IMG/VR virus record: IMGVR_UViG_3300046542_000330
Location: 1-45,850 of that record
DNA: 45,850 nt
Source: a virus
Direction: 5' to 3' (one strand)
Shown here: in pieces, positions 2,873-45,541 of the stretch
Layout of the letters: each line of letters begins with the position of its first letter
Position numbering within the stretch: the first letter of the stretch is position 1
The notes under the pieces: generated by a model
The model's database searches: none
Told to the model about the DNA's origin: nothing
What the model saw: the letters and a program-made list of their open reading frames with translations, nothing else
Translations under genes and position numbers: made by a program

Positions 2873-3026
2873 TGCTGCCTCCTGCGGTCGGGGCTTCAAC
2901 TGCCAGCTGGTCTATGCGCGCCAGCAACGCACTGCGGTATTGGCCCAGCGTCTGGAACGCGGCCGCGTGGCCGTCGTCGGCCACCAGGAGGCGCACCGAC
3001 GCCAGGGCTTGCTGCCGGTCGGCCAT
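2715..3026 (-). CDS. hypothetical early protein, overlapping frame
   Basis: ATG 3026 overlaps the stop of the helicase-like gene as TGATG. The first 45 residues (MADRQQALASVRLLVADDGH, then FQTLGQYRSALLARIDQL) look like a genuine helical protein. The last 50 residues are Gly/Ala/Pro-rich and overlap the well-supported 55-aa gene in another frame, so the natural C-terminus may have been lost through a shift near 2880. Confidence 0.5.
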   Translation of the reverse strand: MADRQQALASVRLLVADDGHAAAFQTLGQYRSALLARIDQLAVEAPTAGGSNDAGDPPDPAAGARVPGQATPGTHAATGAGGDPAPAGVGADRGGARERAAGN

Positions 3027-3745
3027 CACGCCGCCAGCGCGCGCTGGGCCCCATCGGCCGGCGGGCGGGTGTGCTGGTCGAAGTCGCCCATGTCCAGGCC
3101 GCGCATCAGGTACTCGCGGAACGCCTCAATGCCGCCGTTGTCGATCTCGGCGCGCACCGCCAGGTAGAAGCGCGGCAGGTGCCGCGGCGGCACCTCCAGC
3201 ACGGCCAGCCGGCGGTCCGATTCCAGCACCGGCAGGAACTCGCTGGAGGTCGACAGGAACACGAAATTCATCCTGTTCTTGCGGGTCTGGGCGGGCTGGA
3301 ATTTCTGGGAGATAGTCAGCGCCACGGCGGACACCAGGTCCTTCAGGCGCGCCGCGTTCTTCTTCGAGAACGGGCCCTCGAACACCGCCAGCCGCGCGCC
3401 ATCGGCCCAGCGGTAGTTGAAGGTGGCGTGCAGCTGATCCGCGTCGTGCACGCGCACGCTGTTGTCGCCATACACCTGGCGCATGATGGTGTTGAAGAAC
3501 AGGCTCTTGCCGGTGCCGTTCTCACCGTTGACCACCAGCGCCAGGTCCATCTTGACGCCGGGGTTGCGCAGCGGGTAGGCCAGCCAGCACAGCACCCAGT
3601 GGCACTTGGCCTCGTCGTAGTCGCACAGGTGCAACAGCAATGCCTTGATGTTGGCGAAGTTGGCCGGCTGGTGGCCGCTGCGGTCGGTGAAGACGCTCAG
3701 GATCGCGGCGGCAAGCAGGCGGAGGTTCTGGAACATGGCTTTCAT
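3026..3745 (-). CDS. free-standing SF3-like helicase (P-loop) domain
   Basis: 239 residues with a Walker A GENGTGKS at about 72-79 inside WLAYPLRNPGVKM...ALVVNGENGTGKSLFF, a sensor-like Asn/Ser segment (NRMNFVFLSTSSEF) and SDRRLAVLE. It aligns along its length with the C-terminal helicase part of the primase-helicase at 14267-16999 but lacks the primase half and the C-terminal region. The expected acidic Walker B pair (LFEE in the large protein) is VFEG here, so ATP hydrolysis may be impaired. AAGGGAG lies seven bases before the ATG. It could be an accessory helicase, a replication regulator or a decayed copy. Confidence 0.75.
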   Translation of the reverse strand: MKAMFQNLRLLAAAILSVFTDRSGHQPANFANIKALLLHLCDYDEAKCHWVLCWLAYPLRNPGVKMDLALVVNGENGTGKSLFFNTIMRQVYGDNSVRVHDADQLHATFNYRWADGARLAVFEGPFSKKNAARLKDLVSAVALTISQKFQPAQTRKNRMNFVFLSTSSEFLPVLESDRRLAVLEVPPRHLPRFYLAVRAEIDNGGIEAFREYLMRGLDMGDFDQHTRPPADGAQRALAA

Positions 3746-3784: not shown

Positions 3785-5545
3785 TCAGGCCGCCAGCCGG
3801 GCAAGTTCGTGCTCGTGGGCGATGTTGGCGCGGATGACGGCCACCGCCGGCGGCGGCGAGACGCTGTTTCCGATCATCCGCACCTGGGCGGAGCCGGATA
3901 GTGGCCGCGTCACCGTACGGCCGCGCTTGTCGGTCTTGGTGTACACCGGGTCGAGGATGTAGTTGCGCGGGAACCCCTGCGCGTTGGCCAGCTCGCGGGG
4001 CACCAGCATGCGCAGGCCGATGTCGACCACTTCCATCAGCTCGCCGTTGACCGTCACCAGCTCGGGGAACTCGGCGTCCTTCAGGCTCGGGCAGTACTCG
4101 CGCAGGAACGCGCGGATCTGCTCGCGCCGGGCCTCGTACTGCCCCGGGCGCGCGAGCGTGGTTCGTACCTCGGCGTGGTGCAGGCCGGCCGCGCTGACGG
4201 TGCCCAGCGGCTCGTTGGTGGCAGCGACAGTGCTGGTGCCGCGCAGCTTGACCAGGTTGCTCGTCACGACCGCGTGGCGGTTCTCGGTCACGATCGTGCT
4301 CAGTGGCGTCTGCACGTCCCACGTGCCGTTGCCGTTGCTCTGGTTGTCGATGCCCACCAGGTGCGCCGTGATCACCGAGCTGTGGTCGGACGTCGTCACC
4401 GTCGGCATCGGTTGCTCGACGCTGGCGCCGACCACGCCCTTGTAGTGCTTGGCCAGGTACGCGCAGGTCACGCCTACCCGGTCCTTGGTGACGATGGTCG
4501 GCATCGGCCGGTCGATCGCCACGTTCTGGCTGCCGCTCTTGTAGTACTGGACCAGCGATGGCACTACCAGGGCGCGATGGTTCTCGGTCGTCAGCGTGCC
4601 CATCGGCTGGTCGACCGATACCGGCTTGCCAGCATAGATCGGGCCTCCCTGACCGACGATGTACGGGCGCACCGCGTCCTTCACATAGCGCTCGAACCCG
4701 CGCCCCACGCGGCGCAGCGTCGCCGGCGCGAGCGGCTTCTTGCGCTCGAAGATCGACGGGCACGGGATCGACCAGTCAATGCAGTCGGCGGCGGTGGCGA
4801 ACGGCAGCAGCTTCCCGGCCCTAACGGCAGGCGAATCGGGCGCACCGTGGGTCGGCTCGGGCCAGCGGATCGCGACGCCGTCGCGGCGCATCACCATGAA
4901 CAGGCGGCGCCGGATGGTCGGCGCGCCGTAGTCGCAGGCGCGCAGGATGCGCCACTGGACGTCGTAGCCCAGTCCCGCGATAACGCGCTCGATCGGGAAG
5001 TCCTCGCCCAGGGTGGCCATGATCTCGCCCATGTCCGGATGGTCTTTCGGCAGGCCGGTGGTCAACGCCATCAAGAACGCCTTGAACGTCCGTCCTTTGT
5101 GCTCCTTGATCGGGCGGCCGTGCGCGTCGAGCGGGCCCCAGGTCAGGAACTCCTCGACGTTCTCGAGGAACATCAGGCGCGGCGCAAGCTGCGCGCCCCA
5201 CCGCAGCACCACCCACGCCAGCCCGCGCGTCTTCTGGTCGAGGATGTTGAAGCCCTTGGCCTTGGAAAAGTGAGTGCAGGTCGGCGAGAACCAGGCGGCG
5301 CCCAGCGGCCCGTCGCCGATCACGCGGCGCGGGTCGATCAGGAACACGTCCTCCCGGTAGTGGCGCGTGGTCGGGTGGTTGGCCTCGTGCATGCACAGCG
5401 CCTCGCCGTCGTGGTTGATGGCGATGTCCGGATCGCGCCCGAACGCCTGGCGGATGGCCTCGCTGGCCCCGCCGCCCCCGGCGAAGTTGTCGGCGATGCG
5501 CTCGTGGCCGAAGCCGAGGGGGAGCGTGAAGGCGTCACGTTTCAT
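3785..5545 (-). CDS. C5 cytosine DNA methyltransferase
   Basis: 586 residues. Motif I IADNFAGGGGASEAI (17-31) binds AdoMet, the catalytic Cys90 lies in SPTCTHFS (a PTC variant of the usual PPC), and ENVEEF (128-133) is motif VI. Between roughly residues 300 and 460 five units of the type QPMGTLTTENHRALV recur (PMPTIVT, PMPTVTT, PLSTIVT, PLGTVS), as in large phage C5 methylases. The C-terminus carries the target-domain ending (AQVRMIGNSVSPPPA). Likely protects phage DNA from host restriction. ATG overlaps the reverse transcriptase stop by ATGA. Confidence 0.9.
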   Translation of the reverse strand: MKRDAFTLPLGFGHERIADNFAGGGGASEAIRQAFGRDPDIAINHDGEALCMHEANHPTTRHYREDVFLIDPRRVIGDGPLGAAWFSPTCTHFSKAKGFNILDQKTRGLAWVVLRWGAQLAPRLMFLENVEEFLTWGPLDAHGRPIKEHKGRTFKAFLMALTTGLPKDHPDMGEIMATLGEDFPIERVIAGLGYDVQWRILRACDYGAPTIRRRLFMVMRRDGVAIRWPEPTHGAPDSPAVRAGKLLPFATAADCIDWSIPCPSIFERKKPLAPATLRRVGRGFERYVKDAVRPYIVGQGGPIYAGKPVSVDQPMGTLTTENHRALVVPSLVQYYKSGSQNVAIDRPMPTIVTKDRVGVTCAYLAKHYKGVVGASVEQPMPTVTTSDHSSVITAHLVGIDNQSNGNGTWDVQTPLSTIVTENRHAVVTSNLVKLRGTSTVAATNEPLGTVSAAGLHHAEVRTTLARPGQYEARREQIRAFLREYCPSLKDAEFPELVTVNGELMEVVDIGLRMLVPRELANAQGFPRNYILDPVYTKTDKRGRTVTRPLSGSAQVRMIGNSVSPPPAVAVIRANIAHEHELARLAA

Positions 5546-6738
5546 GCGGGCTTCCGGTGGGTTTTGGTAAACGACCGATTCACGGCATGGCCGCGCCTCA
5601 GGACCGCGCGCGCGACTTGGGCGCGGTCAGCATGGCTGCTGTCCGACTGGCGCAGCAGGCCGAGATAGCTGTTTGCCGCGGCGTACACCATGCTGTCGTC
5701 CATGGTGCGCAGGCGCTCGACGGCCTGCCCGACAGTGCGCCGGCGGGTGCGCGTGTGCCAGGGCTTGATCACATGGCCGACGAAGTCGACGCCGCGCGCC
5801 ACCGGCTGCAGGATCGTCTTGCTCGGGTTCAGCCTGGCGCCCAGCGTCGTGGGCAGGAACGCCTCAATGCTGGCCAGGGCCGCGTTCAGCCACTGCGGCG
5901 ACTCGTGCAGCAGAACGAAGTCGTCGACGTAGCGCACGTAATGGCGGGCGCGCACCTGGTGCTTCGCGTACTGGTCGAGCGCGTCGAGGTAGATGTTGGC
6001 GAAGAACTGCGACGACAGGTTTCCGATCGGCAGGCCGAGGTGGCCGGGCTGGCTGGCCAGGCGCTTGTGCGGCGGCACCAGTTCGACCAGCCGGCGTTCG
6101 CCGCGCAGCTCGTAGTCCGCGCGCGGGTCGTGGAACAGGATCACGCCGGCCAGCCACAGCCACCAAGGCTCCGTTACGCGGGCGGCGATCTGGCGCCACA
6201 GCACGCGCTTGTCGATCGAGACGAAGAAGTTGGCCAGGTCGCACTTCAGGTACCACAGCGGCCGGCTCCAGTTCTGGGAGGCGGTGCGGATCTTGCCTTC
6301 CAGGCGACGGGCCGCGTACAGCGTGCCGCGGCCCGGGATGCAGGCGCAGGTGTCGCTGATGAACGAGGCGTAGAAGCGCGGCGCGATGCGGTTGTACAGC
6401 AGGTGGTGCACGATCCGGTCGCGGAAGTCGGCCGCCCATACCTCGCGCGGCCTGGGGCGCGTGATGATGAAGCAGATCGAGCGGCCGGGCCAGTAGCTGC
6501 CGTCGGCCAGTTCGTCGCGCAGGCGCGCCAGGTTGCGCTCCTGGTCCTGCTCGAAGGCGGCGGCGCTGGCCGAGTTGCGTTTGGTCTTGCGGCAGTCGAG
6601 GTAGGCCTGCACCAGCTCCTCGAAAGAAAAATCAGCATGGGGGCTGCCGGGATAATCTGCGGACCGCGCGAGCGCGGAGGCTGGCCGACTTGTTGTTGTT
6701 GTTCTGGTTGCCGTTGTTGAAGTTCTGATTCCAGGCAT
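5542..6738 (-). CDS. DGR reverse transcriptase
   Basis: RVT_1 polymerase. Using the ATG at 6738 the catalytic Asp is 167 (YLKCDLANFFVSID), the motif IGNLSSQ (238-244) replaces the usual QGxxxSP and is diagnostic of DGR enzymes, and YVDD is at 270-273. It copies the template RNA with errors at adenines. The start is uncertain: the frame is open to 6975, the ATG at 6738 lies inside the template repeat, and the conserved part begins only at about SFEELVQAYLDC (near 6630). A GTG at 6612 behind GAGGAG is another option, though it would trim conserved residues. The end overlaps the methyltransferase start. Confidence 0.9.
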   Translation of the reverse strand: MPGIRTSTTATRTTTTSRPASALARSADYPGSPHADFSFEELVQAYLDCRKTKRNSASAAAFEQDQERNLARLRDELADGSYWPGRSICFIITRPRPREVWAADFRDRIVHHLLYNRIAPRFYASFISDTCACIPGRGTLYAARRLEGKIRTASQNWSRPLWYLKCDLANFFVSIDKRVLWRQIAARVTEPWWLWLAGVILFHDPRADYELRGERRLVELVPPHKRLASQPGHLGLPIGNLSSQFFANIYLDALDQYAKHQVRARHYVRYVDDFVLLHESPQWLNAALASIEAFLPTTLGARLNPSKTILQPVARGVDFVGHVIKPWHTRTRRRTVGQAVERLRTMDDSMVYAAANSYLGLLRQSDSSHADRAQVARAVLRRGHAVNRSFTKTHRKPA

Positions 6739-6763
6739 AGTCGTCGTTGGCAGCGTGCTGCGT
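6654..6763 (-). repeat. DGR template repeat (TR)
   Basis: 107 bp (6654-6760) align without gaps to VR1 (7326-7432) and VR2 (7777-7883). Read on the minus strand in the target frame it encodes QHAANDDYAWNQNFNNGNQ followed by four Asn codons, with nine AAC codons in all. Differences to the VRs fall at TR adenines. It lies between avd and the RT core, the usual DGR place. The last 35 bases of the transcript side, including CCGCGCTCGCGCGG, are identical in all three copies. Confidence 0.95.
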
Positions 6764-6784
6764 GTATTCGTGCTATCTACATCG

Positions 6785-6818
6785 CCCCGCCGAAGGCCGC
6801 AGCGGCCGATCAGCGGGG
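6785..6818 (-). other. hairpin upstream of TR, probable DGR RNA structure
   Basis: Outer arms CCCCGC/GCGGGG (6 bp) enclose an inner perfect palindrome GGCCGC-N-GCGGCC (6 bp, one-base loop), separated by small internal loops. It sits about 22 bases 5' of the TR in the transcript. DGR template RNAs are known to need structured flanks for cDNA priming; the role here is inferred. Confidence 0.5.
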
Positions 6819-6938
6819 AAACTGCGCCAGACCTTCCCGAACTAGGTCGGGTGGTATCTGCGGTGCGCATGGCGGTGGCCTTGTGGGCCAGCGGCACGAC
6901 CAGATTAAAAGTTCGCACAGTCATGGTGGCCGTGACCA

Positions 6939-7295
6939 TCAGGAAGCGGGCGACATTGCGGAGCGGCGGCGCCATCCAGTGGCCTGCTTGCCGATGCTGG
7001 TGGTCAGATCGACCGCCCGGGCGTATTGCTTGACCGAGATCAGGCGCTTGTCCTGCGACAGGCGCAGCAGCAGCTCCGCCACCTGCAGCCGCTCGATGAG
7101 CCCCTGCAGGTGCGGCGCCTTGTCTTGCGCGGTGTTGGCGCGGAAGACCAGGATCGTGATCTTGACCACCTCGTCGCGCATCGCCCCGCCAATCGATGCC
7201 TTGAAGTCGCGGGGCATGTTCTTGGCGAGGTCGGTGACGACGTCGAGGAGGTCGTAAGCAGCCTTGTAGATCGGCAGCTGGGTATGGAGTGCCAT
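6939..7295 (-). CDS. avd: accessory variability determinant Avd
   Basis: 118 residues, helical and basic, of the four-helix-bundle Avd / 23S-rRNA-intervening-sequence fold: IYKAAYDLLDVVTDLAKNMP at 9-28, then GGAMRDEVVKITILVFRANT and LQGLIERLQVAELLLRL. Avd forms a pentameric barrel that binds the reverse transcriptase and template RNA and is needed for mutagenic homing. It lies between the second variable gene and the TR, as in the Bordetella phage cassette. No clear ribosome site precedes the ATG, so translation may be coupled to the gene 17 bases upstream. Confidence 0.9.
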   Translation of the reverse strand: MALHTQLPIYKAAYDLLDVVTDLAKNMPRDFKASIGGAMRDEVVKITILVFRANTAQDKAPHLQGLIERLQVAELLLRLSQDKRLISVKQYARAVDLTTSIGKQATGWRRRSAMSPAS

Positions 7296-7312
7296 GCTGA
7301 GAAAGGGCTAAA

Positions 7313-7738
7313 TTACTGAATGATTAATCTGCGGACCGCGCGAGCGCGGAGGCTGGCCGACTTGAAGTAGTCGTCCTGGCTGCCGTAGTCGAAGAACTGA
7401 ATCCAGGCACAGACGCCGATGGCAGCGTGCTGCTCGCCCGACCAGTACGCCGCGGACTTGAACTCGTGCTTCAGGTTCGCGTACAGCAACGCCTGCTCGC
7501 GGCGGGTCGGCAGCTCGCCGCCGGCTTTTGCCGCAAAGTCCTTCGCGGCCGCCCAGGTCACGCCCTCCGCCGTACCAGGCAGCAGTACCAGGTGGTGGTC
7601 GGGCTGGCCGTCCTGCCCAAGGATCAGGCCGGCGTACAGTTCGCCCGGCTTGAGGTTTTCCGCGATCCATTGCGCCTTGCTGGCCGCCAGTCCGGCGACG
7701 GGTCCGCCCGGCTGCTGAAGTTCTTGTGCTTTTTTCAT
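7313..7738 (-). CDS. DGR variable protein 1 (DUF1566 / C-type-lectin-like)
   Basis: 141 residues. Residues 30-100 show DUF1566 features (LYAGLILGQDGQPDHHLVLL, GVTWAAAKDFAAKAGGELPT, AAYWSGEQHA). The C-terminal 36 residues are encoded by VR1 and end SASLRARAVRRLIIQ. In DGR targets this end forms the ligand-binding face of a C-type lectin fold. No signal peptide is seen, so it acts inside the cell, on the virion, or is released by lysis. Adjacent to avd, and downstream of the second variable gene. Confidence 0.88.
   Translation of the reverse strand: MKKAQELQQPGGPVAGLAASKAQWIAENLKPGELYAGLILGQDGQPDHHLVLLPGTAEGVTWAAAKDFAAKAGGELPTRREQALLYANLKHEFKSAAYWSGEQHAAIGVCAWIQFFDYGSQDDYFKSASLRARAVRRLIIQ
7326..7432 (-). 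repeat. DGR variable repeat VR1
   Basis: Differs from the TR at 15 positions, all of them adenines on the coding strand of the TR (for example AAC to ATC, TTC, GAC, TAC or AGC). The 35 bases at the 3' end are identical to TR and contain the GC-rich CCGCGCTCGCGCGG hairpin, the likely initiation-of-mutagenic-homing site. Confidence 0.95.
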
Positions 7739-7766
7739 GATCAGTTACCCTGAAATGGATGAAGGG

Positions 7767-8600
7767 TTAAATGGGCAATCTGCGGACCGCGCGAGCGCGG
7801 AGGCTGGCCGAAATGAGGCTGGTGCCCTGGTAGCCGTAGCCGAAGTACTGACTCCAGGCACAGACGTCGTCGGCAGCGTGCTGCGTGCTCGACCAGTACC
7901 ACGTGTCGGCGAAGGCCTGCTCGCCGTTATCGGCAAAGCCCGGCGCCGTGGTCTGCGCCGGCAGCTCGCGGCTGTATGCGAAGGTCGGTGGCACGGCCGC
8001 CGCGTTCAGGCCCGAGCGCCCGTACAGGGTGTTGGTCTCGGCGGTCGGCTTCAGGCTGCGGTACAGGATCTCGAGCTCGTCCTGGCTGGGGAGGTACCAG
8101 TCGGTGTGACCGCCGATGTCCAGGCCGCGGGCCCACTGCGCCAGCTCGCTGCCGGCGTCCAGCATCGCAACCGTGTTGTGCATGCCGTCGCAGTAGCTGT
8201 CGGCGCCGGCGACGCGGCGCTCGGAGGCGAGCCAGGCGCCCTCGCGCTCCCCTTCGGCCTTGGGCGCGACGATCAGCGCGTGCAGCGCGCCGGCGATCAG
8301 GATGCGGCCGGCGTAGAAGCCGCCAGCGAAGGGCGTGCCGGGCACGGCAGGGATGTCATCTTGGGTTTTCACGTCTTCTCCTTCTTGGGTGGGTGATGGT
8401 TGTTGTTCTGGCGGCTCGGGCATCGGCATCCAGTGGGTCACGAGTTCCTCGGCGATGATGTCGGCGCTGACGTAGCGCCACACGTCGCCGTCGCGGTAGC
8501 CGGTCCACACTTCCTGGTAGGTCAGCGCGACCAGCACCAGGGTCTCGTCGTCTGGCAGGCGTTCGGTGACGGGAATCCAGGCGTTCATCAGCGGCGACAT
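7767..8600 (-). CDS. DGR variable protein 2 (DUF551 + DUF1566 fusion)
   Basis: 277 residues from ATG 8600. Residues 5-65 are DUF551-like (NAWIPVTERLPDDETLVLVA, then VTHWMPMPEPP). After a Pro/Gln linker comes a DUF1566 domain (GGFYAGRILIAGALHALIVA, GHTDWYLPSQDELEILYRSL, DTWYWSSTQHA) whose end is VR2. A GTG at 8372 in the same frame has AAGGAG five bases before it, so a 201-residue variable protein without DUF551 may also be made. DUF551 is usually a separate small phage protein, so the fusion is unusual. No signal peptide. Follows the DUF2303 gene by seven bases. Confidence 0.85.
   Translation of the reverse strand: MSPLMNAWIPVTERLPDDETLVLVALTYQEVWTGYRDGDVWRYVSADIIAEELVTHWMPMPEPPEQQPSPTQEGEDVKTQDDIPAVPGTPFAGGFYAGRILIAGALHALIVAPKAEGEREGAWLASERRVAGADSYCDGMHNTVAMLDAGSELAQWARGLDIGGHTDWYLPSQDELEILYRSLKPTAETNTLYGRSGLNAAAVPPTFAYSRELPAQTTAPGFADNGEQAFADTWYWSSTQHAADDVCAWSQYFGYGYQGTSLISASLRARAVRRLPI
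7777..7883 (-). repeat. DGR variable repeat VR2
   Basis: Differs from the TR at 17 positions: 16 are TR adenines and one is a G to T change in the final variable codon (AAG to ATT). It encodes QHAADDVCAWSQYFGYGYQG and then the invariant SASLRARAVRRL. It also differs from VR1, so both targets have been diversified independently. Confidence 0.95.
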
Positions 8601-8607
8601 CGTGCGC

Positions 8608-9486
8608 TTACGGCTTGCCGATGAGGACGGTGAAGCCGGCCTCGCGCGCGTGGTTGATGTAGGCCTGGAACGCATCCTCGATCGCGTTCTCCGGGCGGTC
8701 CAACTCGTACCAGAACTTGAGCTTGCCGCCGCCCAGGCGGTACTTCAGGCGCGCATAGACCTTGTAGCCTTCGCCGTTCTTGAAAAGGCGGGCGCCGATC
8801 GCGAAGCGGTTCGGGATCTCGATCAGGCCGGTGCCGGCGCGGGCATCAATGGTCTCGCTGTAGGTCAGCTGCACCTGGCCGTTGTCCAGGCGCTTGCTGC
8901 TGCTGAAGTTCACCTCGGTCTTGGCCTGCAGCGTCAGCGCCACCTGCAGCAGCATCTCGCCGGACGGCTCGACCACGTCGGCGATGTTGTCCTCGATGAA
9001 CACCGCGAACTCTTCCTGCTCCATCACCTTCTTGTTCTTGCCGTACCAGGCGGCGAACTCGCGGCTCAGCTCGGCGGTGTAGACGGCGCGGAAGTCGCGC
9101 CAGCCGGCCACCGCCGTGTCCTTGGCCTGGTCGTTCAGCACGGCGGTCAGGGTGCGCGTCTCGGGGTCGGCGTAGACGTAGGTGTTGACCGGGTCGCCCT
9201 GGTCGACCACGAACACATTGAAGCTGGCCAGGTCGCCCAGCTGGACGGTGCCATGCTTGCGGTACGGCGCCGGCTCGGCCTTCTCGATCAGGTCCGTCAG
9301 GTCGACGTGGCGGTGGTCCTTCGGGATCACCAGGTGGGTGGTGCGGCCGACTTCCTGCGCGGCGTTGGCGGCCAGCGACAGCGCGCCGATCTGCTCGATC
9401 GCGGTCGCGTCCAGGTGGAGGTGCTCTTGGGCTGCGGCTACGGTCCCGATCGCCAGGCCTGCCGCTTCGTTGTTGTTGTCGTTCAC
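8608..9486 (-). CDS. DUF2303 (YfdQ-like) phage protein
   Basis: 292 residues, matching the DUF2303 family found in early regions of temperate phages (THLVIPKDHRHVDLTDL at 50-66, DFRAVYTAEL..., a central EEFAVFIEDNIADVVEPSGE and a C-terminal FWYELDRPENAIEDAF). Role unknown. A GTG start at 9486 overlaps the upstream stop as GTGA, implying coupling. Confidence 0.85.
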   Translation of the reverse strand: MNDNNNEAAGLAIGTVAAAQEHLHLDATAIEQIGALSLAANAAQEVGRTTHLVIPKDHRHVDLTDLIEKAEPAPYRKHGTVQLGDLASFNVFVVDQGDPVNTYVYADPETRTLTAVLNDQAKDTAVAGWRDFRAVYTAELSREFAAWYGKNKKVMEQEEFAVFIEDNIADVVEPSGEMLLQVALTLQAKTEVNFSSSKRLDNGQVQLTYSETIDARAGTGLIEIPNRFAIGARLFKNGEGYKVYARLKYRLGGGKLKFWYELDRPENAIEDAFQAYINHAREAGFTVLIGKP

Positions 9487-12212: not shown

Positions 12213-12446
12213 ATGAACAACTTTGACCGGTATGCTGCGGCGTACTTTGCAATGAACGAGGAGGCGCGCCTCCTGATCCTTGGCTTCGCCGAGGATTACG
12301 CCAGACTGTACCCGGCGCCCCGTCCCTCAACCAGACTGCGCCTGGTCACGCAGAACCTCCTCGATACTCCGCTTGCGGGTACGGCCGGCCATGGTCCGGA
12401 TGGCATCGCGGCCGGGTCCGTCCGAAAGCCGGTACTGCTCAAGTAA
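12213..12446 (+). CDS. small hypothetical protein, convergent with the repressor
   Basis: The first 40 residues (MNNFDRYAAAYFAMNEEARL, LILGFAEDYARLYPAPRPS) look like a genuine helical protein of a kind seen near phage repressors. The last 39 residues are antisense to the 3' end of the repressor and may be a runaway extension. AGGA is very close to the ATG, so the start is not certain. Confidence 0.45.
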   Translation: MNNFDRYAAAYFAMNEEARLLILGFAEDYARLYPAPRPSTRLRLVTQNLLDTPLAGTAGHGPDGIAAGSVRKPVLLK

Positions 12447-12788
12447 GTCCAGTTCCTCCGTGGTCACCAGCGTCAACCGTGGCCGCTCTGGCGTCAGTGC
12501 TGCCGGTCGCTCCACTGCCGGTCGCTCCACCGCCTCGTCCGGCTCTGCTTCGCCCGGCTGGCCGTGCGGCACGTCGAGCCAGCCGCGGCCGACGCCGTAA
12601 GCCTCCTCAATCCTCCTGGCAATGCTATTGCCGATGTTTTTCGTCGGGTTCTTGCCGATGATCTGGCTCACCTGCGAATTGCTCATCTCCAGCCGGCGCG
12701 CAAACTCCGCGAGGCCGTCGTGTTGCCTCGCAAGGTGGCGTGCGTTCTCGCGGCGGGTATGTTCTCGATCCATCTCGGGATGATCCAT
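12327..12788 (-). CDS. CI-like XRE-family repressor
   Basis: 153 residues from ATG 12788. Residues 12-70 form an XRE HTH (ARQHDGLAEFARRLEMSNSQ, VSQIIGKNPTKNIGNSIARR, EEAYGVGRGWLD). The C-terminal half is Pro/Glu-rich and short, with no S24 peptidase domain, so induction would not be by RecA-driven self-cleavage of this protein. It diverges from the Cro-like gene over three palindromic operators, the first only four bases before its start. The start could also be ATG 12773. Confidence 0.85.
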   Translation of the reverse strand: MDHPEMDREHTRRENARHLARQHDGLAEFARRLEMSNSQVSQIIGKNPTKNIGNSIARRIEEAYGVGRGWLDVPHGQPGEAEPDEAVERPAVERPAALTPERPRLTLVTTEELDLLEQYRLSDGPGRDAIRTMAGRTRKRSIEEVLRDQAQSG

Positions 12789-12791
12789 TTT

Positions 12792-12857
12792 TTTATCAGA
12801 AAGATAAATAATCAAATGGATAAACAGCGCTTGCTCGTTGTTTATCCTTTTGGTAAA
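12792..12857. promoter_or_regulatory. three right operators between repressor and Cro-like gene
   Basis: TTTATC-AGAAA-GATAAA (12792-12808) is a perfect palindrome. ATAATC-AAATG-GATAAA (12808-12824) and TTTATC-CTTTT-GGTAAA (12841-12857) are imperfect copies. All are 17 bp. Centre spacings are 16 and 33 bp. The arrangement mirrors oR1-oR3 of lambdoid phages. Confidence 0.7.
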
Positions 12858-14091: not shown

Positions 14092-14280
14092 ATGAACTCC
14101 CCCAGCGTCGAGCAAACTCTAGCACCGCGTCCAGCGTCTACCGCTGAGCAAGATCATGGACTGTGCGCCGACCCGGTCGAGCGCATCCGCCCGGCCACGG
14201 AAAAGCGCCACATCCGCAAGCACTACGAAAGCGTGCTGGCCCAGCTGGAAGCGGAAGGGGCGGGCGATGGCCACGCTTAG
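14092..14280 (+). CDS. small hypothetical protein upstream of primase (62 aa)
   Basis: ATG 14092 follows AAGAAGAG. The C-terminal half is charged and helical (EKRHIRKHYESVLAQLEAEG). Its last 14 bases overlap the primase start, so translation is coupled. Function unknown. Confidence 0.6.
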   Translation: MNSPSVEQTLAPRPASTAEQDHGLCADPVERIRPATEKRHIRKHYESVLAQLEAEGAGDGHA

Positions 14281-16999
14281 CCAGGTCATCGACCAGATGC
14301 AGGCCGCCGGCCTGCCGCTGCTGCCGACCGGTCACCCGCTGCTCGACGGCAAGGTGTACCGCTTCGGCCCGAAAAAAAAGGCGTGGTACGTGCTGCGCGA
14401 GCTCACGCTCAACAACGGCAAGTGCGTGGTGACCGGCAGCTTCGGCACCTGGCAGGGCACCGACAACAATGCGATCCCAGTCTCGATCGACTGGGAGGGC
14501 GTGAGCGCGGAAGAGCGCGCCGAGGCCGAGCGCAAGCAGGCCGAACACCAGCGCGCCGAGGCCGAGCAGAAGCGGCGCGACGCCGAACTGGCGGCCAACC
14601 GCGCGCGCGAGCAGTGGAAAGCCGCGCTCGAAGCGTCCACGCACGGCTACCTGGAGCGCAAGCGCATCGGGTCGGAATGCACCCGCGTCGACGACAAGGG
14701 CATGCTGCTGGTCCCGGCCCGCAAGTACAGCCGCGACGGCGCCGTGCTGGCCGGCCTGCAGAAGATCCGCCCCGACGGCGCCAAGCGCTTCAGCAAAGGC
14801 ATGGACATGATCGGCGCCTGCTGCCTGCTCGGCCAGGTCAACGAGAGCACGCCCCTGATCGGCATCGCCGAAGGCTACGCCACCGGCCAGACCGTGCGCA
14901 TGGCCACTGGCCACCAGCTGCCGGTGATGGTCGCCTTCAACGCCGGCAACCTGCTGGCCGTGGCGCGCCAGCTGCGCCGCGATTTCCCCGCCGCGCACCT
15001 GCTGTTCCTGGCCGACGACGACATGCGCGTGCTGGCGCGCCTGCGCGAGGCCCTGCTCGAAGACTACGAGGTCACCTGGGAGCCGCAGGTCGACGGCGCC
15101 GACCACCGGCTGGAAGCGGCCAGCGGCGACATCGTCACCGTATGTGCGCGCTGGCGCAGCGACAGCACCGGCACCGACTACATCGAGGCCGACATCCGTG
15201 CCGGCCGCTCGGTCAAGACCCGCACCTTCAAGAACGCCGGCATTTCATGCGCGCGCGCCGCTGCGGCCGACATTGGAAACGCCTCGGTCGTCTGGCCGTG
15301 CTTCGCGGACCGCCTGGACGACAAATGGTCCGACTTCAACGACCTGTTCCTGGCCGAATCGCTCGACGTGGTGCGCTTCCAGGTGCTGGCCGCGCGCTCC
15401 CGCGCCCTCGCTGCCGGCGGCTCGCCGGCCGTCGAGCACGCGCCCGTGGCGGTGCCCGACTACGTCGACGCGGCGCCGCTCCCTCCGGCACCTCCCGCGG
15501 GGGAAGAGCCGGCCAGTGCAATGCGGGTGCCGACGCTCGAAGGCCTGCTGTCGCACTTCTGCCTGATCTATCCCACCACCGACGTCTGGGACGGCCTGCG
15601 CAAGCAGCGCCTGAAGCGCTCGGCGTTCACGGCGTGGGTCGGCAAGGAACTGGCCACCCAGTGGGAGAAGGACCCGAAGCGCCGCACCATCCTGCGCGAG
15701 ACCCTGCCCACCCTGGTCGGCGGGCGAGCCGTCGAAGGGGGTGCGGGGGGCGGCAAGCTGGGCGAGATGCTCGACAACCTGACCCTGCTGCGCGGCACCG
15801 AAACGGTGTGGGACGCGATCGGCCAGCAGGTCATGTCGCTGGGCGCGGTGCGCGCCGACTACACCGCCGAACTGACCTCGAAGTGGCAGGAGCACGCCCA
15901 GCGCAAGACCATCGAGGCCAAGAACCTGGTGTTCGACCCCACCCAGCAGGCCGATCCGGTCATCCACGTCAACATCTTCGGAGGATGGCCCCTCACCCCC
16001 AAGGATCGGCCCGAGCTGGTCGCCCCGATCCTCGCGCTCCTCGCTTCGCTGTGCGAGGCCGAAGACAAAGTCGAGGAATGCGTCGAGTGGATCCTGCGCT
16101 GGCTGGCCTACCCGCTCCAGCACCCCGGCGCCAAGATGCAGACCGCGCTCTTGGTCTTCGGCGAGAAGCAGGGTACCGGCAAGTCGCTGTTCTTCCAGGA
16201 CGTGATGCTGCCGATCTACGGCGAGTACGGCGGCGTGGCCAGTCAGCACCAGCTGGACTCGTCGTTCACCGCCTGGCGCAGCCGCAAGCTGTTCATGCTG
16301 TTCGAGGAGGTGCTCTCGCGCGACGACCGCTACAGCCACAACGGCACGCTCAAGTACATGATCACCGGCAAGTCGATGAGCATCAATCAAAAGAACTTGC
16401 CGGAACGCGACGAGCGCAACCATATGAACAGCGCGTTCCTGTCCAACGAGCCGCAGCCGATCCCGATCGAACTGGAGGATAGGCGCTTCATGGTGATTGA
16501 GGCGCGCCGCAAGCAGGACAAGGAATTCTACGACGCGGTGCAGGCCGCGATCGCGGCCGGCGGCTGCGAGGCGTTCTACCACTTCCTGCTGACGCTGCCG
16601 CTGGACGGCTTCAACGAACACACCAAGCCGCCGATGACGCTGGCCAAGGAACGCGTCATTGAGTTCGGCCTGAACAGCTGGATGAGCTTCCACCGCGCCT
16701 GGAAGGACGGCTACCTCGACGCCCCGTACTGCTCCTGCCTCTCGGAGGACTTGTACATCATGTACAAGCGCTGGTGCGACAGGAGCGGCGAGAAGCCGCT
16801 CACGCTGTGCAAGTTCGCCGGCCTGATCGCCAGTCGCGAGACCAAGAGCAAGAAGCCGGTCGTGGTCGGCAACAAGCCCAAGGCCACCCGCATGGTGTTC
16901 GTCATCGATAACCACGACTACCCCGGCACCCTGGACGAGCAGATCAAGAAGTTCCGCGACTTGGCCGACATCCGTGCGGACGGCGCGTTGCAGGGTTGA
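14267..16999 (+). CDS. TOPRIM primase / SF3-like helicase (DUF5906)
   Basis: 910 residues. Residues 1-70 resemble a small substrate-binding domain, 80-125 form a charged coiled coil (EERAEAERKQAEHQRAEAEQ), 195-255 a TOPRIM core (GIAEGYATGQT, then LLFLADDD), and 600-790 a DUF5906/SF3-like helicase with Walker A GEKQGTGKS near 632, acidic LFEE, an Asn/Ser sensor (NHMNSAFLS) and an EDRRFMVIE arginine motif. It should prime and unwind phage DNA. ATG 14267 lies inside the previous gene's 3' end. The free-standing helicase domain at 3026-3745 is its paralogue. Confidence 0.9.
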   Translation: MATLSQVIDQMQAAGLPLLPTGHPLLDGKVYRFGPKKKAWYVLRELTLNNGKCVVTGSFGTWQGTDNNAIPVSIDWEGVSAEERAEAERKQAEHQRAEAEQKRRDAELAANRAREQWKAALEASTHGYLERKRIGSECTRVDDKGMLLVPARKYSRDGAVLAGLQKIRPDGAKRFSKGMDMIGACCLLGQVNESTPLIGIAEGYATGQTVRMATGHQLPVMVAFNAGNLLAVARQLRRDFPAAHLLFLADDDMRVLARLREALLEDYEVTWEPQVDGADHRLEAASGDIVTVCARWRSDSTGTDYIEADIRAGRSVKTRTFKNAGISCARAAAADIGNASVVWPCFADRLDDKWSDFNDLFLAESLDVVRFQVLAARSRALAAGGSPAVEHAPVAVPDYVDAAPLPPAPPAGEEPASAMRVPTLEGLLSHFCLIYPTTDVWDGLRKQRLKRSAFTAWVGKELATQWEKDPKRRTILRETLPTLVGGRAVEGGAGGGKLGEMLDNLTLLRGTETVWDAIGQQVMSLGAVRADYTAELTSKWQEHAQRKTIEAKNLVFDPTQQADPVIHVNIFGGWPLTPKDRPELVAPILALLASLCEAEDKVEECVEWILRWLAYPLQHPGAKMQTALLVFGEKQGTGKSLFFQDVMLPIYGEYGGVASQHQLDSSFTAWRSRKLFMLFEEVLSRDDRYSHNGTLKYMITGKSMSINQKNLPERDERNHMNSAFLSNEPQPIPIELEDRRFMVIEARRKQDKEFYDAVQAAIAAGGCEAFYHFLLTLPLDGFNEHTKPPMTLAKERVIEFGLNSWMSFHRAWKDGYLDAPYCSCLSEDLYIMYKRWCDRSGEKPLTLCKFAGLIASRETKSKKPVVVGNKPKATRMVFVIDNHDYPGTLDEQIKKFRDLADIRADGALQG

Positions 17000-37295: not shown

Positions 37296-38878
37296 ACTAT
37301 GACCTGGGCCTCATTGAGCCGGTGACGATCGGCGACGGCAGCGCGGTCACGCGCGCGGCCGGCGTGGCCTGCACCTACTACGACAAGAACGGCGCGCTGC
37401 AGAGCGTGACGGACGCCTCGCTGCGCATCACGTATGACCCGGCGGACCTGTCGGCGGCGCCGTACCCGCTGATCGAGCCGGCGGCGACGAACTTGCTGCG
37501 CAACAGCGAAGGGGCGGTCAGTACGCTTGATGTATCGGGCCAAGTGTCCAACGCTGCCGCGAGCATCACGGGCTTTACCAATTCGATTCAATTCGGGGAC
37601 AACAGCGCAACGCGCTGGGCATACCACACGTTTTCAACCGTCCCCGGCACCACCTACACCCTGAGTGTGTTTGTGCAAATGGACGACGGTAGAGCCCCGG
37701 TTTTCGGCCTGAACTCTGACCCCCTCGCCGATATGAGCATGGTTGCGCAATCGGATGTGTGGGGCGCCGTCGCCGAAGTGCGATACATGGGGGGTGGCGT
37801 CTATCGGGCATTCTTCGTGTTCACCGCCAACACCGTTAATGAGAACTACGGCGTGGCGAAATACTCGGCGCAAAGCAGTCGCGGGTTTCGCGTCACCGGC
37901 TACCAGCTTGTTACCGGCAACGACCGCTCGAGCTACATCAAGACCGGCGCGGCCCCCGTGACCCGCCCCGCCGACGTGATCGGCCCGAACTTCGGCCTGA
38001 TCTATTCAAGCCTCACCGAGAACGACGCCGACGACGCGCCGCTGTACAACCCGGCCACCACCTACGCCGCCGGCGCCCGCGTGCGCCGCGCCGAGACCCA
38101 CCGCATCTACGAGAGCACGCTGGCCGGCAACGTCGGCAACACCCCCGAGCTCAACGCCACCGGCACCGACGCCAAGTGGCTGGACGTCGGCCCCACCAAC
38201 AAGTGGGCGATGTTCGACGGCGACGTCAGCACCCCGTCGAGCGCCGCGTCCTCGCTCACGGTCGTGTTCCGGCCGGGCGCCTTCAACGCGCTGTACGGCG
38301 CCGGCATCGACGCCGACATGGTGCAGGTGTGCGTCCAGGACGCCCCGGGCGGCAACATCGTCCTGCGCTACACCGGCACGCTCGAAGCGTCCGAGCCGGC
38401 CGACTACGACGAATACTTCTGGAGCCGCTTCAAGCCGCAGACCGACTTCCTGCTCACCGACGTCGACCCGTACCACCAGTGCATCGTCACGGTCACCCTC
38501 AGCAAGGAGGCCGGCACCGTCAAGTGCGGCGTGCTGCTGGCCGGCGACCAGATCCTGCTCGGCGCCACCGAGCGCGGCGTCAAGGCCAAGCCCAAGACCT
38601 ACAGCTACATCAAGACCGACGACTACGGCAACACCACCATCAAGCGCCGCCGCAAGGGCAAGGACCTGAGCCTGTCGGCCTGGGTCAGCCGCACCGACGC
38701 CAACTGGGCCGAGGGCGTGGTCGAGCGCCTGCTCGACGTGCCGGTCGTCGTCGTCGCCGGCGAGGTGCGCTGCTACGGCTTGGTGAGCGGCGAAATGTCG
38801 TGGGACTACCCGCAAGACTGCAAACTTTCACTCTCCGTCCTGGGAATCATCAATGCCACTATTGACACCACCGCCTAG
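37292..38878 (+). CDS. tail-tip protein with carbohydrate-binding domains
   Basis: 528 residues, ATG overlapping the tape-measure stop. Residues 60-225 look like a phage carbohydrate-binding beta sandwich (NLLRNSEGAVSTLDVSGQVS, YTLSVFVQMDDGRAP). A short chitin-binding-like module follows (YNPATTYAAGARVRRAETHR, YESTLAGNVGNTPELN). The C-terminal 260 residues are a conserved tail domain with a Lys/Arg stretch (KRRRKGKDL). Bases 37500-37950 are less GC-rich than both sides, which suggests acquisition of the binding domain. Confidence 0.7.
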   Translation: MNYDLGLIEPVTIGDGSAVTRAAGVACTYYDKNGALQSVTDASLRITYDPADLSAAPYPLIEPAATNLLRNSEGAVSTLDVSGQVSNAAASITGFTNSIQFGDNSATRWAYHTFSTVPGTTYTLSVFVQMDDGRAPVFGLNSDPLADMSMVAQSDVWGAVAEVRYMGGGVYRAFFVFTANTVNENYGVAKYSAQSSRGFRVTGYQLVTGNDRSSYIKTGAAPVTRPADVIGPNFGLIYSSLTENDADDAPLYNPATTYAAGARVRRAETHRIYESTLAGNVGNTPELNATGTDAKWLDVGPTNKWAMFDGDVSTPSSAASSLTVVFRPGAFNALYGAGIDADMVQVCVQDAPGGNIVLRYTGTLEASEPADYDEYFWSRFKPQTDFLLTDVDPYHQCIVTVTLSKEAGTVKCGVLLAGDQILLGATERGVKAKPKTYSYIKTDDYGNTTIKRRRKGKDLSLSAWVSRTDANWAEGVVERLLDVPVVVVAGEVRCYGLVSGEMSWDYPQDCKLSLSVLGIINATIDTTA

Positions 38879-39884
38879 CAAGCCGCAGCGCCGGGTTCGG
38901 GCCACTTTCACCAGCCTGCTCGACGGCTTCATCGCCTGGCTGGTCGACACGTTTTACAACGAGCTGCTCGCACTAGTCGCTAGCTTAAATTCGCTCGCAG
39001 CTGGCGGGGCATATGCGATCCCGTACGCGTTCAACACAGGTGTCGCTGGAGCTGACCCGACGAACGGAAAACTTAGCGTTAACAATGCGCTCGTGGGAAG
39101 CGCGACCGCGATATATGTGAGTTGGTATAACTCGGCAGGGGGGCTCGTTAATGCCTACCTGAACAGCATTAACACGTCAACAAGCGCCGTTAAGGGAGAC
39201 ATACGCTTAGTGTCGATGACCGATCCGTCTCGCTACGTGATTTTTGGCTTTAACGGCATTACGGCCGACAGCGGCACGTACAAAACGTTAAGCGTGTTTT
39301 TCAGAAGTAGCACCATGTCTGGCACGTTTAACGCGAGCGAACCCGTAATGCTCCAATTTTCGCGCACCGGCGACAAGGGCGACACCGGGCCGGTCTACAC
39401 GCCGGGCGTGCTGCACCTGCGCGAGGAAAAGGCCAGCGGGACCGCTGGCACCGCCCCGACCAACCTCGGCACCGGCTTGTGGCGCCGCCCCATCAACACG
39501 GTCAAAACCAACACGATGAGCGGCGCATCGCTGGCAAGCGACCAATTCGTGCTGCCGGCCGGTACCCACGAGATCGACGGCGGCGGGTTCAGCATGGTGA
39601 GCACCGGCTCGGCGGGCGCCACCTACTACCACAAGATGGCCCTGTACAACGTCACCGATGGCGTCTACGCGCTCATCGGCGGCAACGCGATGAGCAGCGC
39701 GCCGACCGGTTCCACCGCATACCAGAGCACCGACGCGCCGCTACGCGGGTCGATCACGATTGCTGCGGCCAAGACGTTCGAGTTGCGGCACCTGACGCCG
39801 AGCGCCACCCTGCAGGCGCCGTCGGCCGCGTCCACCGGACAGGTCGAGGTCTACACCGACATTTTCATCAAGAAGGTAGCGTAA
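38853..39884 (+). CDS. tail fibre with collagen-like knob
   Basis: 343 residues. An N-terminal attachment helix (FTSLLDGFIAWLVDTFYNEL), a beta domain at about 45-170, a short collagen-like turn GDKGDTGP near 174, and a C-terminal beta domain (LPAGTHEIDGGGFSMVSTGS). The first third (about 38980-39360) is clearly lower in GC and uses rarer codons, so it is likely a recently swapped receptor-binding part. No DGR variable repeat is present here. Confidence 0.7.
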   Translation: MPLLTPPPSKPQRRVRATFTSLLDGFIAWLVDTFYNELLALVASLNSLAAGGAYAIPYAFNTGVAGADPTNGKLSVNNALVGSATAIYVSWYNSAGGLVNAYLNSINTSTSAVKGDIRLVSMTDPSRYVIFGFNGITADSGTYKTLSVFFRSSTMSGTFNASEPVMLQFSRTGDKGDTGPVYTPGVLHLREEKASGTAGTAPTNLGTGLWRRPINTVKTNTMSGASLASDQFVLPAGTHEIDGGGFSMVSTGSAGATYYHKMALYNVTDGVYALIGGNAMSSAPTGSTAYQSTDAPLRGSITIAAAKTFELRHLTPSATLQAPSAASTGQVEVYTDIFIKKVA

Positions 39885-44539: not shown

Positions 44540-45541
44540 TCAATCGAGCCGGGTGGCGATGTCCGCGGCGCTCTCGTTGTAATAAATTTGCAACATGCGC
44601 AGGTCGCGGTGACCCACCATCCGCGCCAGGTCGAGCACGCCCAGCTTCTTGGCCAGCCGCGTGATGGCCAGGTGGCGGGTATCGTGGAAGGTCAGGCCCT
44701 CCACCCCCGCGCGCGTCCTGGCTTTCCGGAACAGGGCGTCCAGCGACGCCTCGCTGATGCCGAAGCGCGGCCCGTCCCCCGGGTCCGGGAGCAGGTCGAG
44801 CAGCTCGCGGGCGCGGCGCGACAAGGGCACGTCGCGCTTGAAGCCGTTCTTGTTGACCGACGCCGGCAGGTGCGCGACATTCTCGCTGATCCATTCCGGG
44901 CGCAACTTGCAGATCTCCCCGGCCCGCATGCCGGTCTCGATCGCGAACAGGAACGCCACTGCCACCGCCTGGCTCTTGGTCGTCACCGGACCCTCGTCGA
45001 ACCCGCACGCCAGGCAGATGCGGTCAATCTCGTCGGGCGTCGGCAAGCGCTCGCGCGACGGCGGATCCTTGGGCCGCCGCACGTCGGTCGTCGGGCTGCC
45101 CGCGATCCACTTCCACTCGCGCCGCGCCACCGTGAACACGTTCGAAATCAGGCCCAGGTCGCGGTTGATGGTCGAGCCCGCCACGTTGGCGGCCAGGCGC
45201 TGGTCGCGCCACGCGCCCAGCATCGCCGGCGTCAGGTCGACCAGCCTGATCTCGTCCAGCGGCCTGCCGTCGAACAGCTGCCGGCCGAGAAAGTGCAGGC
45301 GCGTCGACTCCCACTGCCGCCCGGCCTTCTGGCTCGACACCTCCTTGACATAGCGCCGGAACGCGTCGCCGCACGTCTTGTCGAGCGCGACGCCGGCCGC
45401 CTTGCCCTGCCGGATCTCCGTCTCGCGCTGGCCTGCCCACGCCACCGCCTTGGCCTTGGTGCTGAAGGTTCTCGACTCGCGCACGCCCAGAATCGCCACC
45501 TGGGCGCGCCAGCCCTTGTCCCGTTTTGCTATCGATGCCAT
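44540..45541 (-). CDS. int: tyrosine integrase
   Basis: 333 residues. N-terminal arm-binding part (KGWRAQVAILGVRESRTFST), a SAM-like core (GSTINRDLGLISNVFTVARR) and the catalytic domain with Arg206 (ETGMRAGEICKL), His286/Arg289 (FHDTRH), His311 (GHRD) and Tyr320 or Tyr321 (LQIYY). Catalyses integration at the tRNA-Arg 3' end. It lies 182 bases from attR and reads away from it. Confidence 0.93.
   Translation of the reverse strand: MASIAKRDKGWRAQVAILGVRESRTFSTKAKAVAWAGQRETEIRQGKAAGVALDKTCGDAFRRYVKEVSSQKAGRQWESTRLHFLGRQLFDGRPLDEIRLVDLTPAMLGAWRDQRLAANVAGSTINRDLGLISNVFTVARREWKWIAGSPTTDVRRPKDPPSRERLPTPDEIDRICLACGFDEGPVTTKSQAVAVAFLFAIETGMRAGEICKLRPEWISENVAHLPASVNKNGFKRDVPLSRRARELLDLLPDPGDGPRFGISEASLDALFRKARTRAGVEGLTFHDTRHLAITRLAKKLGVLDLARMVGHRDLRMLQIYYNESAADIATRLD

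Follow-up and report, generated by a model that had tools for sequence, protein, structure and literature searches.

Organisation of the locus

The 45,850-base virus contig IMGVR_UViG_3300046542_000330 from IMG/VR (hereafter the window, to which coordinates refer unless another locus is named) carries a diversity-generating retroelement (DGR) in which a single template repeat (TR) is matched by two variable repeats (VRs), each at the 3' end of a target gene. All parts lie on the minus strand. The TR (6654–6760), VR1 (7326–7432) and VR2 (7777–7883) align without gaps, and all 15 differences between VR1 and the TR, together with 16 of the 17 between VR2 and the TR, fall at TR adenines; the sole exception is the final G of a codon AAG, which reads ATT in VR2. 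With adenine at 32 of the 107 TR positions, the bias has a hypergeometric probability of 8e-10 for VR1 and 2e-9 for VR2 (about 1e-9 per VR), and the pooled 31/32 has a binomial probability of 1e-15. The original prediction, made from the sequence alone, had given the same repeat coordinates, gap-free alignment and difference counts, all of which were reproduced exactly. When the whole record was searched with the TR, only the TR itself, VR1 and VR2 were matched, and no further TR copy was found in it. The 45,850 bases have no terminal repeats, so that the record may be incomplete.

The reverse transcriptase (RT) open reading frame (ORF; 5542–6870) matches RVT_1 (E 7e-16) and phrog_1423 (E 3e-121), and its closest solved structure is the RT of phage BPP-1 (8ub7, E 1e-38). 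The catalytic and DGR-type motifs are intact, both the IGNLSSQ already recognised in the original prediction and YVDD. The adjacent avd (6939–7295) encodes the accessory variability determinant bAvd (PF22296, E 3e-12; phrog_3206 Avd, E 9e-34), likewise as predicted. Target gene 1 (7313–7738) and target gene 2 (7767–8372, from its probable GTG start), both encoding predicted C-type-lectin-fold proteins, complete the element.

Variable repeats in related loci

An IMG/VR scan returned 345 relatives of the RT, of which 80 were fetched, giving 83 loci with a TR and VRs when seven phages and the window are included. Across this clade, 2351 of 2387 TR/VR differences (98.5%) lie at TR adenines. At least two VRs were present in 61 of the 68 loci for which 4.2 kb or more of upstream sequence was available, so the two-target form is the usual one in this RT clade and nothing special. 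The original description of two targets on one template as less usual does hold for DGRs at large, for which the published shares are 13% with two targets (PMC10743442), some one in seven with more than one VR (PMC3521204) and 28.6% (PMC6642488), but it does not hold within this clade.

Near-identical loci provide direct evidence of natural VR turnover in relatives. Over the 7387 nucleotides common to loci L022 and L023, 15 positions differ, and 14 of these are TR-adenine sites of a single VR. Between L012 and L019, which are the window's closest kin, the TR is identical and the VRs show 33 differences, of which 32 lie at TR adenines. The comparison of related phages proposed in the original prediction thus found VRs that vary, rather than the constancy that would have spoken against diversification. 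Adenine-restricted differences, a DGR-type RT with its catalytic motifs, Avd, VR genes encoding a C-type lectin fold, and VR variation against a constant TR in close relatives together confirm a genuine DGR, and the predicted complete element with one template and two Lcl/DUF1566 targets is borne out. To judge from these sequences, the DGR, which resides in a temperate siphophage, is very probably active.

A structured RNA on the 5' side of the template

Directly 5' of the TR lies the structured RNA RT-15 (RF03018; 6761–6955), detected by cmscan with 181.8 bits (E 2e-45) against a gathering threshold of 82. The full model is matched and ends where the TR begins, an arrangement found in all 12 relatives tested, including locus L069, where TR and RT are separated by a small ORF. 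Single-sequence folding of RT-15 with the TR was no better than that of shuffled sequences (z 0.05), so support for the fold comes from the Rfam model and from a 56-sequence alignment, in which 26 of the 44 pairs show double compensatory changes. The Rfam entry, as displayed, names only a small RNA gene, and here RT-15 forms the 5' part of the DGR template RNA. Searching the window region with cmscan for the Phage_DGR RNA (RF03022) returned none, RT-15 being the only RNA found. The idea that the 5' part of the RT coding region conceals a spacer RNA was considered and rejected, as the 5' codons of RT show no excess of synonymous conservation. There is no room for a 3' spacer, because the conserved RT domain begins only about 15 nucleotides after the TR (from approximately 6645 downward), these 5' codons lack excess synonymous conservation and the RT frame continues through the TR.

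The RT reading frame is open throughout both TR and RT-15, and the RT start codon must therefore lie within or upstream of the TR. An ATG at 6870–6868, inside RT-15, is a candidate that is kept in frame in most loci, and another ATG lies within the TR. Overlap of TR and RT ORF is a category defined as early as 2012 (PMC3521204). In L069 the small ORF (5720–5992 of that locus) stands between TR and RT, and RT apparently has its own ATG overlapping the stop codon of that ORF (ATGGTAA), which suggests that RT does not depend on an N terminus encoded by the TR.

Pairing of the RT-15 strand with the template and possible pairing with the target

Within RT-15, the strand UUAAUCUG(G) is unpaired and nearly invariant. 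Its core 5'-UAAUCUG-3' (6901–6907), a proposed primer or guide, is the reverse complement of the TR 3' end CAGATTA (6653–6659) and of both VR ends. Across 121 distinct loci, positions 1–5 and 7–9 of the strand are paired with the TR 3' end, with paired fractions of 0.91–1.0 for positions 1–5, 0.91 for position 7 and 0.82 for position 8. The clearest covariation is at position 7 (z 11–12), where an RNA G faces a TR C in 17/17 loci, C faces G in 26/30 and U faces A or G in 67/68. On a tree built without the pairing sites, ten branches changed on both sides at this position, all from one pair to another, where 1.4 same-branch changes would be expected; four more double changes come from position 8 and five from position 9. 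The signal appears at zero shift only. We regard the RT-15:TR helix as established by covariation, and by analogy with BPP-1 it may serve in priming.

The same strand is complementary to the VR end CAGATT, and here too the two sides tend to go together. All 15 VRs of the lineage with the guide GAUUCUG end in CAGAATC, and the six VRs of the loci with AACCUG all end in CAGGTT, most TRs differing in both cases; C at position 6 is associated with G in the RNA (Fisher p 3e-5). These observations are suggestive of a pairing between RT-15 and the VR. The strand was at first read as a guide for the VR alone, a view that was revised because covariation is stronger with the TR. An exception is seen in Pseudomonas loci such as L096, L121 and L136, in which the VR on the avd side ends in CAGTCAATTGATTGATTAATT or a similar form such as CAGCGAGCTTATTGATTAATT, without CAGATT, and the other VR has CAGATT.

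A 27-nucleotide element after the variable repeats

Each VR of the window is followed by a 27-nucleotide AT-rich element, ATTAATCATTCAGTAATTTAGCCCTTT after VR1 (7302–7328) and ATTGCCCATTTAACCCTTCATCCATTT after VR2 (7753–7779), with ATT at positions 1, 8, 16 and 24 counted from the VR end. The relaxed consensus occurs in the window at these two sites only. In the clade it was found in 123 of 162 VR flanks and in none of 78 TR flanks, and the information content of VR flanks drops to near zero at position 28. When IMG/VR was scanned with the pattern joined to CCGCAG, almost all of the 143 matches lay at the end of ORFs for lectin-type proteins with the C terminus RAVRRLxI, and 64 stretches with the pattern were found in GTDB genomes, mostly from Pseudomonas and Burkholderiales. 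No GC-rich hairpin or cruciform was found after VR1 or VR2 of the window. A hairpin of the BPP-1 type after the VR was also rejected as a general feature of the clade, being present at 29 of 170 VRs against 14 expected.

Comparison with known systems

The BPP-1 DGR (mtd-avd-TR-brt) shares with the window the order target-avd-TR-RT, Avd, a related RT, adenine-specific mutagenesis and a C-type lectin target. It differs in that its Phage_DGR RNA (RF03022) lies between TR and RT, on the 3' side of the TR, whereas RT-15 lies on the 5' side; in the window, moreover, the TR is inside the RT ORF, there are two targets, an AT-rich element takes the place of the GC hairpin that follows the BPP-1 VR, and the DGR occupies an early operon outside the tail module. 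The BPP-1 spacer recruits RT-Avd and primes cDNA synthesis (PMC12875486). A further likeness is a primer-like strand that matches the VR better than the TR: bases 48–56 of the BPP-1 spacer (AGGUGGUCA; locus L091) can form nine pairs with the IMH of the VR (TGACCACCT) and seven, including one wobble, with the TR, a complementarity that is equalled by 2% of shuffles. The BPP-1 priming adenine is number 56, the last base of this strand. Most BPP-1 relatives keep the complement as GUGGUCA.

Closer kin is the Burkholderia phage Magia, which belongs to the same clade and has an RT 64% identical to that of the window, RT-15, lectin targets and a DGR between repressor and integrase. Its publication reported two target genes and a DGR regarded as potential, and RT-15, the element and a third VR are undescribed there (PMC7883833); three VRs are present in its sequence (1803–1894 of locus L006). 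Another known DGR is comparable in having one TR and two varied lectin-fold targets; in the window both VRs are 3'-terminal and lie in the early region. Retrons (msr-msd) offer a possible analogy, in that the proposed priming nucleotide would lie 5' of the template on the same RNA. They differ in having neither retrohoming nor VRs, and the resemblance would be mechanistic only. A limited literature search on RT-15, an AT-rich element after the VR and guide pairing in DGRs returned nothing.

Proposed mechanism and alternatives

The preferred reading, to which we give a probability of about 0.7, is that of a functional phage DGR with priming and placement based on RT-15 and a VR-only element as target mark. 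RT and Avd would make a cDNA copy of the TR in which the bases opposite adenines are random, and this copy would take the place of the 3' end in each of the two neighbouring genes, yielding two independently varied C-type-lectin-fold proteins. The template RNA would consist of RT-15 followed by the TR, with RT-15 acting at the 5' side as the BPP-1 spacer acts at the 3' side. Pairing of UAAUCUG with the TR 3' end would allow the nucleotide beside the strand to prime cDNA synthesis, in a topology like that of retrons. As the strand also complements the VR end CAGATT, RNA and cDNA together could form a continuous complement of the target sense strand and so place the copy, and the 27-nucleotide element, present after VRs only, would mark the target and keep transfer one-way from TR to VR.

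Several observations weigh against parts of this scheme. Position 6 of the strand is paired with the TR in only 49% of loci. For the VR, the tree holds two joint changes at position 4, one at position 6 and none beyond chance at position 7, and many avd-adjacent VRs in Pseudomonas loci end in CAGTCAATTG or CAGCGAGCTT and do not pair; loci L056 and L078 also depart from the rule. It is because of these few tree events and the non-pairing class of Pseudomonas VRs beside avd that the VR pairing is graded as suggestive. BPP-1 relatives give no spacer:VR covariation, since the complement is invariant among them. In addition, the ATG within RT-15 is in frame with RT in 59 loci, and owing to this conserved codon RT-15 may act as a translation leader as well.

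Taken further, the last point would make this an ordinary DGR of the BPP-1 type, with RT-15 a mere regulatory leader for RT translation and priming by a 3' structure within the RT coding sequence. The conserved in-frame ATG, the lack of any start codon between TR and RT domain in 74 of 81 loci and the use of a 3' spacer by BPP-1 (PMC12875486) would fit such a view, but it is improbable given that the 5' codons of RT show no excess synonymous constraint, that no Phage_DGR RNA was found in the window region and that in L069 an ORF intervenes between the TR and the RT gene; nor would a plain leader predict a strand that covaries with the TR 3' end. About as doubtful is the suggestion that the 27-nucleotide element and the CAGATT end reflect target ancestry, the protein C terminus or translation signals and mark nothing. 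The targets are indeed paralogous, the first part of the element encodes the C-terminal residues (LPI, LIIQ) together with the stop codon, and the full element is missing from some VRs, as the relaxed pattern count indicates. Conservation nevertheless runs past a variably placed stop codon before falling to near zero at position 28, the element is common to near and far target types, and RNA strand and VR end vary jointly in two variants. That the whole DGR is a relic, its VRs diversified in the past and the system now silent in the window phage, is very improbable: the turnover was observed in relatives and VR2 has one non-adenine difference, but RT motifs, avd and RT-15 are all intact and in the closest relatives VRs change at TR adenines while the TR stays constant.

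Even for BPP-1, the way in which DGR cDNA reaches and enters its target is described as incompletely understood (PMC12875486). Both the covarying RT-15:TR helix and the element confined to VRs are short and well delimited, which brings cDNA placement within reach of tests that swap six to eight bases. This DGR is noteworthy for its permuted template RNA, for a covarying helix that resembles a primer and for the proposed target mark, which jointly suggest a base-pairing rule for retrohoming. RT-15, its pairing with the TR, the VR-specific 27-nucleotide element and the early-operon location were all absent from the original prediction.

Target proteins and genomic setting

Target gene 1 encodes a 141-residue protein whose AlphaFold2 model (predicted local distance difference test, pLDDT, 92) has as its best Foldseek match in the PDB the Lcl C-terminal domain 8q4e (E 2e-5). 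Target gene 2 (Lcl_C; PF07603, E 3e-10) has a core of 201 residues with a predicted C-type lectin fold (pLDDT 96), nearest to the Legionella Lcl C-terminal domain (E 2e-4). Its ORF remains in frame to 8675 (7767–8675), through a DUF551 domain (PF04448, E 2e-12), and the most likely gene start is the GTG at 8372, which retains a good ribosome site with AAGGAG upstream. The originally predicted extent of 5542–8600 needs correction at the second target, for the ORF and the probable start. DUF551 (8588–8372, minus strand) is a separate gene in locus L014, and in the window it is joined to target 2 by loss of a stop codon; a DUF551-lectin fusion as a special target design was rejected in favour of this recent stop loss.

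The record contains the genes of a temperate siphophage, including an integrase (44540–45541), a CI-like repressor (12327–12815) and a tail fibre (38853–39884), as well as a CII-like activator, primase, terminase, portal and tape measure. The DGR is situated in a leftward early operon on the repressor (cI) side, where it follows DUF2303 and precedes a gene for a cytosine methyltransferase. The isolated phages Magia, Haboob, phPA-G and Cruim01 carry the same DGR likewise on the repressor/integrase side, so that in the window and in all four isolates the targets lie outside the tail module. From the early operon and their size, the targets are probably intracellular or cell-associated proteins and not receptor-binding proteins of the tail.

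The opposite view, in which the targets are made from the early operon yet assembled into the tail as virion receptor-binding proteins, the DGR switching tropism as in BPP-1, is rather unlikely but the strongest of the alternatives. The C-type lectin fold is that of other DGR targets, and a change of host range was proposed by the authors of the Magia study (PMC7883833). Against this, the genes stand between the repressor and DUF2303/dcm, away from tape measure and tail fibre, the location recurs in the four isolates, and no tail-anchoring domain was found in the targets, which have only 120–220 residues. Proteins that are not part of the virion also enter a wider and more tentative proposal, which we would not yet favour over its negation: throughout the RT-15 DGR lineage, one 5' RNA strand might both prime on the TR and guide the cDNA to the VR, with the 27-nucleotide element as mark and early non-virion proteins as targets. 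If true, there would be a base-pairing rule for retrohoming, possibly common to BPP-1 (spacer 48–56 against VR), and the diversified early proteins might serve, among other possibilities, to recognise host factors or other phages. The size of the clade in Pseudomonas and Burkholderia-group hosts also suggests that the proteins diversified by temperate phages include early ones that probably do not belong to the tail.

Two further genes on the minus strand lie beyond RT. The C5-cytosine methyltransferase (3785–5545) has repeated segments of approximately 30 residues (QPMPTVTTSDHSSVITAHL-like) inserted between its conserved motifs. At 3026–3745, an ORF of 239 residues is similar to the C-terminal portion of DNA primases from phages (phrog_1156), and a full primase is encoded separately on the plus strand at 14156–16999.

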